Shown: piece by piece, positions 30,322-34,649 of the stretch
Position numbering within the stretch: the first letter of the stretch is position 1
How the letters are laid out: each line of letters opens with the position of its first letter
Source of the DNA: Litorivicinus sp.
GTDB lineage: Bacteria > Pseudomonadota > Gammaproteobacteria > Pseudomonadales > Litorivicinaceae
NCBI GenBank assembly: GCA_009886945.1
Contig: QXYM01000049.1
Span: forward strand, 1,553 to 36,201
Direction of reading: 5' to 3'
Length of the DNA stretch: 34,649 bases
Program-made: the position numbers and the translations under genes
The notes under the pieces: model-generated
Told to the model about the DNA's origin: nothing
Seen by the model: only the letters and a program-made list of their open reading frames with translations
The model's database searches: none

Positions 30322-31191
30322 ATGAAGAATACAGCTCGTTATTTGCTACGGATTACCTGTCCGGGACGGACTGGTCTCGTTGCGGCCATCACTGGGTTTT
30401 TGGCGGATCAGGAATGTTTTATTACAGAACTGTCTCAGTTTGATGATATTCAGACTGGGCGTTTTTTCTGTCGAGCCGAGTTTTTTAAGCCGGACTCTGG
30501 GTTGAGTCCTAATCAGCTTTCGGAGATGTTTTCCGAGATTGGCGCACGCTTCGAAATGAGTTGGAAGTTTATTGATCCATCGATTCCGCATCGAACGCTG
30601 ATGTTAGTCTCGAAGTTTGATCATTGTTTGAATGATCTGCTGTATCGCAAGCAGACCGGCGAACTCAACATTGCTGTCACAACCGTCGCTTCCAACCATC
30701 CCGACTTGGAACCTTTGGCACGGTTTCATCAGGCACCTTTTGAAGTGTTGCCAGCGGGTCAATCCAAACTTGCAACGAAGGCCGCTCAGGAAGATCGAAT
30801 TCGCGATTTGATCGATGCACACGATGTTGAATTGGTTGTTCTTGCGCGATACATGCAAGTGTTATCGGATGAACTCTGTCAGGAATTGGCGGGTCGCTGT
30901 ATCAATATTCACCACTCGTTCTTGCCAAGTTTTAAAGGCGCACGTCCGTATCATCAAGCCTTTGAGCGAGGCGTGAAGGCGATCGGTGCGACAGCGCATT
31001 ATGTGACAGCAGATTTGGATGAGGGTCCGATCATCGATCAAGAGGTGGCTCGGGTGGATCACACTTTTGGTCCGGATCAATTATTAGCAACAGGCCGAAA
31101 CATGGAAAACTACGCGCTCTCCCGTGCCGTGAAAGCGCACAGTGAACATCGTGTGTTTTTAAATGGTCATAAGACGGTGGTATTAAAATGA
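30322..31191 (+). CDS. purU: Formyltetrahydrofolate deformylase
   Basis: A 289-residue enzyme that hydrolyses 10-formyl-THF to formate and THF, balancing one-carbon pools and supplying formate for purine synthesis. The N-terminal ACT domain (about residues 5-80, [17 protein letters not shown]) is the likely glycine/methionine-sensing part. The C-terminal formyltransferase-fold domain has catalytic Asn195/His197 in [12 protein letters not shown] and Asp233 in [15 protein letters not shown] precedes ATG 30322. Its stop overlaps the folD start (ATGA), so it is translationally coupled to the enzyme that makes its substrate. Confidence 0.96.
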
Positions 31192-32054
31192 CGGCTCTTC
31201 GCATTGATGGCAAAGCCTTCGCCGAACAGGTTCGCCAGGAAGTCGCCGAGGGGGTAAGTGCGCTGAAAGCATCGCATGGTGTGACTCCTGGGTTGGCTGT
31301 GGTTCTCGTCGGGGAAGATCCCGCCAGCCAGGTCTATGTGAGAAACAAGGTAAAACAAACAGAAGCCTGTGGCATGCGTTCGTTTCACCATGTACTTGAT
31401 GTCGATACTTCGCGCGAATCATTGATGTCGCTGATTCAATCCTTAAATGCGGATCCTGCCGTTCATGGCATTCTCGTTCAATTGCCGTTGCCCGCGCACC
31501 TCGATTCCAAAGATGTGATTGAGGCCATTGATCCAGCAAAAGATGTTGATGGATTCCATACAAGCAACGTGGGTCAACTCTGGACGGGCGGGAATCCGTT
31601 TGTCCCCTGCACACCCCTTGGGTGCATGAAATTGTTGAAGTCAATCGAGCCAAATATTGCTGGCAAGAACGCGGTTGTTATCGGTCGTTCAAATATCGTT
31701 GGGCGTCCGATGGCTGCGCTTTTGTTAAATGAGTCAGCAACCGTCACGATTGCGCACTCTAAAACACACAATCTACCCGCGGTTTGTCGAGAGGCAGATA
31801 TTCTGGTAGCAGCCGTTGGTCGTCCTCAGATGGTGAAGGCGGACTGGATCAAGCCTGGTGCGATCGTTTTGGATGTTGGGATTAACCGCATTGAAACCGA
31901 AGATGGGAAAGGTCGACTTGTTGGTGACGTAGATTTTGATGACGTGTCGACTGTGGCTAGGGCAATCACCCCCGTACCCGGTGGCCCTGGTCCGATGACA
32001 ATTGCCTGTCTTTTAGCCAATACGCTAGAAGCAGCAAAGCGCTCAGTATCTTAA
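31188..32054 (+). CDS. folD: Bifunctional methylene-THF dehydrogenase/methenyl-THF cyclohydrolase
   Basis: A 288-residue cytoplasmic enzyme that oxidises 5,10-methylene-THF with NADP+ and hydrolyses methenyl-THF to 10-formyl-THF. Tyr50 and Lys54 in [17 protein letters not shown] are the catalytic pair; [24 protein letters not shown] and the Rossmann segment [14 protein letters not shown] are standard. [16 protein letters not shown] near the C-terminus closes the active site. It overlaps purU by 4 bp and is the last gene of mrp-dcd-purU-folD. Only 40 bp separate its stop from the convergent btuM-like stop, with no clear terminator. Confidence 0.97.
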
Positions 32055-32094: not shown

Positions 32095-32652
32095 TCAGTG
32101 GGATAGCGCTTCCGGTGACTTTACTTGCGAATACAGGCGATACAAAGCACTTACCACAATAAATGCGACCGCCCAATAGGCTGAGCTTGCAAACACGGCT
32201 GGCGCATATTGAAGTTCACGGGTTATGAACTCAACCATGGTTGGCTGAAAGTTTCCAGACCACAAGTAGAAGCTGCCGCTTGAGATCAATTCGCAGATCA
32301 GTGTTCCACCCATAGCGAAACCGAAAAAGACAGCGGACCCAGAGAATCGGCTAGAAAGATACGGCTTGGCGAGACGTCCTGCCATCCACATCGAGAAGTA
32401 AGCAGGGATGAGCATTCCGTAAGCTACAGAAAAGCATGTGCCTGGCACGCCCCCGAAGGTGAACGCATAGGCGTCAATGCCGACTGCTAGAGACATAAAC
32501 CAAGCGAATGACCAAACAGGTAAAAGAGTTCCGGCTACCATGAAGATCATCCAAGATGCTTCTGGTAGGGCGTTTATGCCTGAAAAATGCGACCCTCTTG
32601 TCAGAAGCATAATTAAGCTCAGCGATATAAGAAGCGCAGATTTGATTTGCAT
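32095..32652 (-). CDS. btuM: Probable cobalamin ECF-type S component BtuM
   Basis: A 185-residue inner-membrane protein with about six hydrophobic helices. I read it as BtuM, the solitary vitamin B12 S component of proteobacteria, for three reasons: it lies directly downstream of a TonB receptor that has a cobalamin riboswitch; its size fits; and the patterns LTRGSHFSGINALPEAS near residue 17, GTCFSVAYGMLIPAY with Cys73, MAGR, and SSGSFYLWSGNF match my memory of that family, where a conserved cysteine at about this place binds and decyanates cobalamin. ATG 32652 has CGGAG 9 bases upstream; an in-frame TTG two codons earlier is less likely. It begins 6 bp after the receptor stop. No ECF ATPase or T component is nearby, as expected for BtuM. 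Alternative: an unrelated B12-regulated membrane protein. Confidence 0.65.
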   Translation of the reverse strand: MQIKSALLISLSLIMLLTRGSHFSGINALPEASWMIFMVAGTLLPVWSFAWFMSLAVGIDAYAFTFGGVPGTCFSVAYGMLIPAYFSMWMAGRLAKPYLSSRFSGSAVFFGFAMGGTLICELISSGSFYLWSGNFQPTMVEFITRELQYAPAVFASSAYWAVAFIVVSALYRLYSQVKSPEALSH

Positions 32653-32658
32653 GATCAA

Positions 32659-34545
32659 TCACTCCGGAGTGTATTTAAAAGTTAGCCAAAATGAGGTCGG
32701 CTCAGCAGGTGTCCGCTTTAGCGTACCATATGAGTCGTAGACGTAGGAGTCGTGTGTAACGTCAAATAAGTTTTTCACACTTAATCCAAATAGCCATTCT
32801 GGTTGGACAAATGTGATTGAAGCAGCAGTAGTCGTGTAGCTGTTATGTTTTCCCAAATCGTTTTCATAATCAGTGATAGCGTAAGCGCTAGAGTACCAAC
32901 GGTGGGAAAGGTTCATCTTGAAGCTATCTGATAACTTGGTATTCACGGTCATATTCGCCTGCATTTTGCTTACGCCGGGAATTTGAGAGCCAGAAAAACT
33001 TCCTGCATTAATCTTGGTGTCGACATAACTAATTTTGCTGATTACATCGGTCCCAGGCAAAGGACTGATCGTTAGGTCAAAGTCTGCTCCCAATCGACGT
33101 GTTTTATCGACGTTGATGTTTGAACCGAAGATTGACTGTGATGTGTCGTTTGCGTCAAACAAAATCTCGTCTTTGTTCCAAATGGCGAATATGCGTGATG
33201 AAAAATTCGAAGCTCTTAGCCCTAACTCCAACCCCTCTCCGTGCTGAGGCTTTAATGCCGTTCCAGAAGAAGATTGCTCGTCGAGAGTGGCGAATCTGAA
33301 CGTTTGGTCAGCTCTGGCGAAAACATCGAGTTCCCCAAATGATTGAGTGATTCCCAAGTCAAAAGCCGTCAAATTTGCTGTCGCCTCAAAACCGTTTTCC
33401 ATCGTGTCCGAGACTGATTGCAATCTTCCCCCAACAGTCGCTGAAAGAGAATTCAACCGTTTGGTCACCTGAGTAAAAATTGCTGCGCTGGCTTGTTTGC
33501 GATAAGGGGTGATGTACAGCGAACTATATTTGCCGTTCGTAAGTTCTACCCCTGCCAAGTAATCAAATGTTGAATCTCGGGCGGGTAAATTACTGATTTC
33601 AAATCGGCCATTCAGTAAGTCTAAATTCTGCTGAATGTTCCCATAGGATGGATTCTCATATTTTCCATTTTGATCGCTTTGCCGGTGAGATAGTGTTCCT
33701 CTGTAATGAGACTGTCGATGGTTGAAGCCTACTTTCAAATCCGTAATCGCTTGGCGATAATCGATCGCCGACCTATCGTTCAGACTAGAATCTCTCCGGT
33801 CCAAAGCCAAAACAGCTTCAGTTGAGGCTCCTGCAGCGTTCCTTTGATCAAGGGAGCGCAGATGAGACAGAGAAAAATCGAAGCTGCGATCGATGCGATA
33901 TTCTAACCGTCCCGAGGTTAAGTCACTGTCGTTGAAATGCCGATAGCCATCTGAACTTTGTATGACAACATCACCAGAAATCGCATAATCAGAGCCAACC
34001 AAGCTATGTTTGGCCGCTATTTCTGCAAAACCAAAACTTCCACCATTCAGTTCATAGGAAGGCCTATAAATCCTATTCTGATTTTTAGTGCTTATCTCTA
34101 TGACGCCTCCAACAGCACCATTACCAAATAAGACGCTACCACCACTTGGAATCAGACGAATTTCTGTAACTTGAGAGAGCGGTATTAGTGCTAGATTTGG
34201 CGCTTCTAGTGTTGGGTTGTTAAGTGGTACACCGTCCAGAACGATCGCAATATTTCTTGCGGCTGTTTCTCCAAATCCGCGGAGATCGATTGCACTGGAC
34301 CTTTTTGCTCCGGTGCTATCAGTACTTGCCCTGAAACTAGAGTTACGCTCTAACACATCGATAATTGACGAGTATCCGCCCTCTGCAATATCACTTTCAG
34401 TAATCAGAGTGAAGTTTGAAGCAGTGGGGTGTATCGGCAACGTCAAATCGTCGATAGTGATAATAATGTCGGCATCTTGCGCGTTTGCCCACGAGCAAAC
34501 GAATGAGAATACCAGGATGGCAGCCAGTTGGACTGTCGATTTCAT
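32659..34545 (-). CDS. btuB: BtuB-like TonB-dependent outer-membrane receptor (vitamin B12)
   Basis: A 628-residue outer-membrane transporter. The signal peptide is MKSTVQLAAILVFSFVCSWANA, cleaved before QDAD. Residues after it (DIIITIDDLTLP) resemble a TonB box, followed by a plug domain with IDLRGFGETAARNIAIVLDGVPLN and PSGGSVLFGNGAVGGVIEI. The rest is a beta barrel ending NLFDVTHDSYVYDSYGT and FWLTFKYTPE; the end is not the usual terminal Phe. Length is close to E. coli BtuB. The cobalamin riboswitch in its leader identifies B12 or a corrinoid as the likely cargo. Base composition is lower in GC than the housekeeping genes and the protein is rich in Ser and Asn, hinting at transfer or relaxed selection. 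Confidence 0.88.
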   Translation of the reverse strand: MKSTVQLAAILVFSFVCSWANAQDADIIITIDDLTLPIHPTASNFTLITESDIAEGGYSSIIDVLERNSSFRASTDSTGAKRSSAIDLRGFGETAARNIAIVLDGVPLNNPTLEAPNLALIPLSQVTEIRLIPSGGSVLFGNGAVGGVIEISTKNQNRIYRPSYELNGGSFGFAEIAAKHSLVGSDYAISGDVVIQSSDGYRHFNDSDLTSGRLEYRIDRSFDFSLSHLRSLDQRNAAGASTEAVLALDRRDSSLNDRSAIDYRQAITDLKVGFNHRQSHYRGTLSHRQSDQNGKYENPSYGNIQQNLDLLNGRFEISNLPARDSTFDYLAGVELTNGKYSSLYITPYRKQASAAIFTQVTKRLNSLSATVGGRLQSVSDTMENGFEATANLTAFDLGITQSFGELDVFARADQTFRFATLDEQSSSGTALKPQHGEGLELGLRASNFSSRIFAIWNKDEILFDANDTSQSIFGSNINVDKTRRLGADFDLTISPLPGTDVISKISYVDTKINAGSFSGSQIPGVSKMQANMTVNTKLSDSFKMNLSHRWYSSAYAITDYENDLGKHNSYTTTAASITFVQPEWLFGLSVKNLFDVTHDSYVYDSYGTLKRTPAEPTSFWLTFKYTPE

Positions 34546-34574
34546 CTGAGTTCCATCAACGCGCCCACCGCACG

Positions 34575-34649
34575 CCTTAAGTTCGTGACACGCCAGGTAG
34601 GTCTCCGGGCTGGTTCAGGGCAATTCCATTTGCCGAATCACTCGCACCT
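34575..34649 (-). promoter_or_regulatory. Cobalamin riboswitch (3' part, cut by window end)
   Basis: Read on the minus strand, the leader contains AGCCCGGAGACCTACCTGGC (complement of 34592-34611), a good match to the B12 box that ends cobalamin riboswitches; E. coli btuB has AGCCCGAAGACCTGCC at the same point. GGTGCGAGTGATTCGG upstream resembles the region preceding it in the btuB leader. The 5' half lies beyond the window. No T-run lies between the B12 box and the receptor ATG, so control at translation initiation is more likely than termination. Confidence 0.85.

Follow-up and report, generated by a model that had tools for sequence, protein, structure and literature searches.

A riboswitch-controlled vitamin B12 uptake operon with an apparently exchangeable outer-membrane receptor gene in Litorivicinus

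We analysed a 34,649-nucleotide (nt) stretch of DNA from a draft genome of Litorivicinus sp. (contig QXYM01000049.1 of assembly GCA_009886945.1), referred to here as the window. One end of it carries, on the minus strand, part of a cobalamin riboswitch, a gene for a TonB-dependent receptor and btuM, the gene for a solitary B12 transporter of the S-component type. It is very probable that these elements form a riboswitch-controlled operon for B12 uptake via BtuM, in which the receptor gene is, in this genus, an exchangeable slot. The open reading frame (ORF) of the receptor (32659-34545, 628 residues) and that of btuM (32095-32652, 185 residues from an ATG or 187 from an upstream TTG) are both on the minus strand, 6 nt apart, and downstream folD (31188-32054, plus strand, named from its sequence and placed by synteny) converges with btuM. 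An earlier, sequence-only reading of the window had described a minus-strand receptor and a small membrane protein, and both ORFs are where it placed them. It had also reported no BtuCDF or energy-coupling factor (ECF) module, and no B12-transporter or ECF gene was seen among the other window ORFs, which were inspected by eye without a family scan.

The receptor gene at this locus differs from genome to genome. Six receptor types are found at the one locus across the 13 genomes of the genus in which a whole receptor is readable: type A in the window and G015 (84% identity), type B in G001, type C in G021, G012, G011, G007, G004 and G017 (79-92%), type C2 in G008 (42-44% to type C), type D in G019, and type E in G006 and G020 (67%). 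The remaining cross-type identities are 25-32%, with type B comparisons covering only 106-214 residues, and a further receptor in G010 is partly assembled. Of these genomes we take G001 to be LSUCC0096, G008 to be HIMB30 and G021 to be AG-900-B21; G009, discussed below, would be the metagenome-assembled genome Ww246. When the window receptor was used as a query, 13 of the 21 other genomes gave one match each, always at this locus (in G010, on a fragment that adjoins a riboswitch), and no match was found in the other 8. Type A was seen only in the window's own genome and in G015. AG-900-B21 is presumably, from the style of its title, a single cell. LSUCC0096 and HIMB30 are given as cultures in PMC8269220. 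From these three genomes together, types B, C and C2 should not be binning artefacts.

The DNA around the receptor still aligns across the genus, at 64-78% identity with the window and at up to 94% between the closest relatives. The edges of homology were mapped with the window locus as blastn query and 12 genomes as subjects, and the alignment with G015 runs through the receptor without a gap in homology. In all 11 cross-type comparisons homology breaks off 6-15 nt short of the receptor start, and in the 10 that can be read on the btuM side it resumes 24-165 nt inside btuM; an aligned stretch within the receptor occurs in G008 only (188 nt, 67%). Among the 40 ORFs of at least 150 residues in the window and in contig C126, which continues it, 39 match syntenic stretches of LSUCC0096 with a median identity of 85% (the lowest, 38%, belongs to an overlapping ORF, possibly not a real gene), and the receptor is the only one without a match. 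As judged from these alignments, the receptor gene has been replaced at this locus. As a separate observation, contig ends cluster at the receptor: they occur there in 8 of 17 genomes (the own genome, G002, G004, G009, G010, G013, G015 and G017), where 2.8 would be expected (chance 0.0013), which hints that populations may harbour several receptor alleles. This count was made by hand once the pattern had been noticed, uses rounded genome sizes and omits the 5 of 22 genomes lacking a usable locus.

The history of the flanks differs from that of the receptors. On a DNA tree of lolCE and cobD, from which G004 and G010 were left out and in which G002 drew a long-branch warning, neither type A nor type C holds as a clade (rejected by the approximately unbiased test, p 2.4e-37 and 1.8e-4), and three receptor types occur within one close group made up of G008, G021 and G019. 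Identity between G021 and G019 is 93.8% up to and including the riboswitch, after which the receptor and btuM (71%) differ; between G021 and G008 it is 93.6% downstream of a point some 40-50 nt into btuM, and their receptors differ. These two comparisons indicate that the receptor moves alone or with btuM. A breakpoint could be mapped in G009, the window's sister (92% identical in lolCE and cobD, 96% both in purU and over 357 nt of dcd), in which the end of btuM and the 3' part of folD are 93% identical to LSUCC0096 and 79-81% to the window. The folD tree places G009 beside G001 and the purU-dcd tree beside the window. The switch falls within folD, at window positions 31367-31377, where the ratio of LSUCC0096-like to window-like sites changes from 191:34 to 17:220, a contrast reached in 0 of 2000 shuffles. 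In the aligned sequences, recombination is directly visible for btuM-folD in this one species, and for the receptors it presumably acted as well. At three loci (L045, L049 and L052) the purU matches are split or partial, perhaps through frameshifts or assembly errors.

The leader of the receptor gene contains a B12 box (AGCCCGGAGACCTACC, 34611-34596, minus strand), as the sequence-only reading had it, and the window ends with its contig (C89) inside the riboswitch, the 3' end of which occupies 34579-34649 (minus strand). For this reason a scan of the whole window with Rfam gave 0 matches at the gathering score, and with only a truncated Cobalamin match for the end fragment alone (9.2 bits, E 4.3) the riboswitch is unprovable from the window by itself. 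The remainder lies at the end of contig C126, which matches positions 1-173 of 189 of the Cobalamin model RF00174 with 87.1 bits (E 7.3e-21, gathering score 31.5; the score was taken on the C126 end and not on the two pieces joined as one sequence), so that the riboswitch foreseen in that reading is recovered once its 5' half is included. The last 55 nt of C126 are identical to the first 55 nt of the window leader (34595-34649, minus strand), and the join is sound because LSUCC0096 carries cobD, riboswitch, receptor, btuM and folD in the same order on one contig. Between the B12 box and the receptor start lies a conserved block (34560-34575, minus strand) of the form GCGTGCGG(T/A)GGGC(G/T)CG, probably the expression platform, which recurs in 16 leaders of the genus (several with a base change, one cut). 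The upstream edge of homology falls just after the riboswitch and this block. The search of the own genome for cobalamin riboswitches turned up only the one on C126, and complete ones were found in 15 genomes of the genus besides the window's. Directly before the C126 riboswitch stands a gene of the CobD/CbiB family (L004:10372-11223, plus strand of C126, PF03186 92.3 bits), with a counterpart in 18 of the 22 genus genomes, although CobS was found neither in the own genome nor in any of the 22.

The 185-residue protein is, by sequence and by modelled fold, a BtuM with the six-helix S-component fold. It matches none of the Pfam or NCBIfam models, so its membership is based on PDB sequences and on the fold. 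A phmmer search against solved structures gave a single strong match, BtuM (8c7p/8ovv, E 6.2e-23), and a profile of 49 homologues matches BtuM with E 3.8e-61. The AlphaFold model (mean predicted local distance difference test, pLDDT, 89.6) superposes on 8c7p with Z 20.9 and a root-mean-square deviation of 2.2 over 172 residues, versus Z 9.1-11.3 for ECF S-components. The BtuM-like character proposed from the letters alone is thereby upheld, as is the singling out of Cys73 as the counterpart of the conserved cobalt-binding cysteine: it aligns with Cys80 of the 8c7p chain and does not vary among 15 aligned sequences, nor among 49 homologues, in which Asp60 is invariant too. BtuM is said to have been predicted in a comparative-genomics study of 2003. 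In Thiobacillus denitrificans BtuM, Cys80 is the cobalt ligand and its change to Ser abolishes growth rescue (PMC6072759), and by analogy Cys73 would be the cobalt ligand here.

BtuM is the only inner-membrane B12 route found in the own draft genome among the importers searched, and it was found in 15 of the 22 genus genomes. For FecCD, the BtuC-type permease, the best match in the own genome (18.5 bits) is under the cut-off of 26.5 and belongs to an ABC-3, ZnuB-like permease. Strong FecCD matches in 7 relatives may be FhuB, because fhuDBC is reported for 2 of 25 OM252 genomes in a sentence of PMC8269220 that names HIMB30 and LSUCC0096. A search for MetE gave no match in the own genome, in which the B12-dependent enzymes MetH (2037 bits, cut-off 1497) and methylmalonyl-CoA mutase (1266 bits, cut-off 876) and a PduO-type adenosyltransferase (194.9 bits, cut-off 108.45, on another contig than btuM) were found. 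MetE-domain matches over the cut-off occur in 3 of the 22 genus genomes, so the need for B12 may differ within the genus. BtuR was not found in the own genome; the sole BtuR-type adenosyltransferase among the 22 is in G016 (G016:C18:43855-44364), which also has the PduO type. The own genome further encodes a MerR regulator with two B12-binding domains (L162:980-1984, minus strand of contig C96; 112.1 bits against a CarH cut-off of 400), possibly a CarH-like B12 light sensor in a marine bacterium.

The layout of the operon is standard for BtuM, and its receptor replacement is not. BtuM proteins had been described as few in the sequence-only reading, a statement that does not hold, as one scan of species genomes confirmed at least 330 relatives. 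Among the best 80 of these, riboswitch, TonB-dependent receptor and btuM follow in that order at 66 loci; of the rest, 5 have a riboswitch without a receptor detected by profile, 2 a receptor without a riboswitch match, 3 lie at contig edges and 4 are of other kinds. At BtuM identities of 70% or more, receptor identity is below 40% in 13 of 28 genus pairs versus 0 of 177 pairs from other taxa (minimum 53%), and at BtuM identities of 60-70% it is below 40% in 6 of 6 genus pairs. These counts come from 9 genus loci (L070, with a partial receptor, and L077, at a contig edge, were left out) and, for other taxa, from loci where btuM had a detected receptor as its neighbour; nor is each pair independent of the others. 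Among the taxa kept it is therefore unusual for close relatives to differ by a replaced receptor.

According to the mechanism that we propose, the riboswitch would allow expression when cobalamin is short, as expected for RF00174, and the TonB-dependent receptor, judged by its context, would carry B12 across the outer membrane. BtuM would bind B12 base-off through Cys73 and release it on the inner side of the membrane with no help from an ECF module. This step would probably be facilitated diffusion with adenosylation as a trap, as was proposed for T. denitrificans BtuM (PMC6072759), and here the PduO-type enzyme would be the one that adenosylates. Homologous recombination in the conserved arms (lolCE-cobD-riboswitch on one side, btuM-folD-purU-dcd on the other) would replace the receptor, alone or with btuM, and each incoming receptor would thereby fall under the same riboswitch. 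No vehicle for the receptor was seen: exact peptide patterns of type A gave none in viral contigs, and plasmids gave only distant matches (26 records, all under 60% identity, the sole one covering at least 80% being 25.8% identical).

In enteric bacteria BtuB is a receptor for phages and colicins, and PDB entry 1ujw, which by its title is BtuB with a colicin, is among the fold matches of the window receptor, in agreement with that role. Escape from phages or bacteriocins would be the most likely cause of the exchange, and phage escape has been proposed as the driver for replacement islands in PMC4033161. We lean, with some reserve, towards a model in which the B12 operon is a docking site, with the fixed riboswitch and ribosome-binding region and btuM-folD as arms. 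Between these arms, unrelated TonB-dependent receptors would be exchanged again and again across species, probably because the receptor is a way in for phages, and the vitamin route would stay constant. It is also conceivable, if rather doubtful, that specificity for the cobamide or its carrier, and not phages, drives the exchange: the exchanged gene is the only one meeting the outside ligand, and btuM sometimes moves with it, but at least one pair has different receptors and a btuM that is still 94% identical.

Several observations weigh against the account of a B12 operon with solitary BtuM and an exchanged receptor, and they concern the inner-membrane step, the ligand and the exchange itself. 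Absences from the own genome are not final because it is a draft of 144 contigs, 96.79% complete, and the search that gave 0 matches to CbiQ/EcfT (PF02361) there did not include ECF ATPases. A BtuM energised by an unrecognised partner, and hence not solitary, is nevertheless unlikely: one Pfam search leaves room for ECF ATPases and distant EcfT forms, and the energy source is treated as unsettled in PMC11109136, but CbiQ/EcfT did not match, and T. denitrificans BtuM works in Escherichia coli, stated to be without an ECF module in PMC6072759.

As to the ligand, the window receptor had been called BtuB-like. It is a TonB-dependent receptor by its plug domain (PF07715, 57.3 bits, cut-off 23.9) and is not a BtuB by the curated models, scoring 50.9 bits against the BtuB equivalog TIGR01779 (cut-off 599.7) and 56.8 bits against NF007926 (cut-off 836); the receptors at the same locus across the genus also score far under the BtuB cut-offs. 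In a search with its structure model (pLDDT 74.7) the best solved match is PqqU, FecA also precedes BtuB, and BtuB first appears at rank 11; fold rank is blind to the ligand, and a fold search of the model cannot assign it. With scores so far under the cut-off, the substrate assignment comes from context, and the operon points to B12 as the ligand. That the receptor imports another metal chelate or a cofactor like pyrroloquinoline quinone (PQQ), its place in the operon being due to chance or to a change of use, would fit these scores and the rank of PqqU and FecA; it is very unlikely given that receptors of all six genus types sit behind a cobalamin riboswitch and before btuM, that most BtuM loci compared share this layout, and that the own genome yielded no second cobalamin riboswitch. 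Receptor types A, C, C2 and E have in common an ADI(V/I)(I/V) motif close behind the signal peptide (window 34459-34476, minus strand), possibly a common TonB box. The G+C content of the receptor gene, 43.9-51.6%, is lower than that of its neighbours in each of the 12 genomes listed, to which we give little weight because barrel composition may explain it.

As to the exchange, parsimony on the flank tree counts 6 type changes against the minimum of 5 possible for six types (G009, G002 and G013, with unreadable receptors, were not counted). The clearest recombinant, G009, shows btuM and folD moving and not the receptor, which is not assembled there, so that its transfer can only be inferred. 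Each species is represented by one genome and all comparisons are between species, and among pairs from other taxa with BtuM identities of 60-70%, receptor identity is below 40% in 10% of 291. Even so, the idea that one receptor gene diverged very fast in place, by drift or diversifying selection and without exchange, is the least credible of the alternatives: all are TonB-dependent receptors of similar length with plug domains that align, but in cobD G015 is no closer than others (78% DNA identity) and yet it has a receptor 84% identical, types A and C are not clades, three types occur among relatives close in the flanks, and a recombination breakpoint was mapped nearby.

Compared with known systems, the window BtuM resembles that of T. 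denitrificans (8c7p, 8ovv; PMC6072759) in its fold, in the aligned cysteine and in a genome in which no EcfT was found. It differs in its sequence (32-34% identity) and in a genome without BtuR and with the PduO-type enzyme encoded elsewhere, whereas btuM adjoins btuR in most hosts according to the same source. The receptor shares with BtuB its TonB dependence and the cobalamin riboswitch and differs in its score, while in G043, a relative from a different family, the receptor beside BtuM is a canonical BtuB (678.3 bits). The riboswitch is like RF00174 over most of the model and differs in being split between two contigs in its own assembly. The replacement flexible genomic islands of aquatic prokaryotes (PMC4033161) are alike in that different genes of similar role occupy the same place through homologous recombination in the flanks; here, too, different genes of the same role were found at the same place, with a recombination footprint at the border (G009 folD). 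Those islands are whole surface-structure clusters within species, whereas here one receptor gene, with or without btuM, is exchanged between species within a riboswitch operon. HmbR of Neisseria meningitidis, also a TonB-dependent receptor diversified by horizontal exchange, comprises two families of one receptor (PMC3068627), unlike the slot described here, which holds mutually unalignable DNA. No paper on exchange of a B12 receptor at a btuM locus was found in the literature searched, which holds few subscription papers.

G001, G008, G021 and G009 appear to belong to OM252 / 'Ca. Halomarinus' / Litoricola. OM252 / 'Ca. Halomarinus' is a cosmopolitan marine clade described as a B12 auxotroph, with btuB predicted in LSUCC0096 only (PMC8269220). 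The locus would supply the missing B12 route of this clade, BtuM being present in most genomes of the genus, and an annotation missing these receptors would be explained by scores that lie far under the BtuB cut-offs. For the study of BtuM, the gain is a lineage for which the searches turned up no ECF module, BtuCDF or MetE and where the solitary transporter looks indispensable. For the evolution of such genomes, it would be a very small replacement locus, consisting of a single gene and occurring in two genomes that are linked to cultured strains, and one at which phage escape and substrate specialisation could be separated by experiment.

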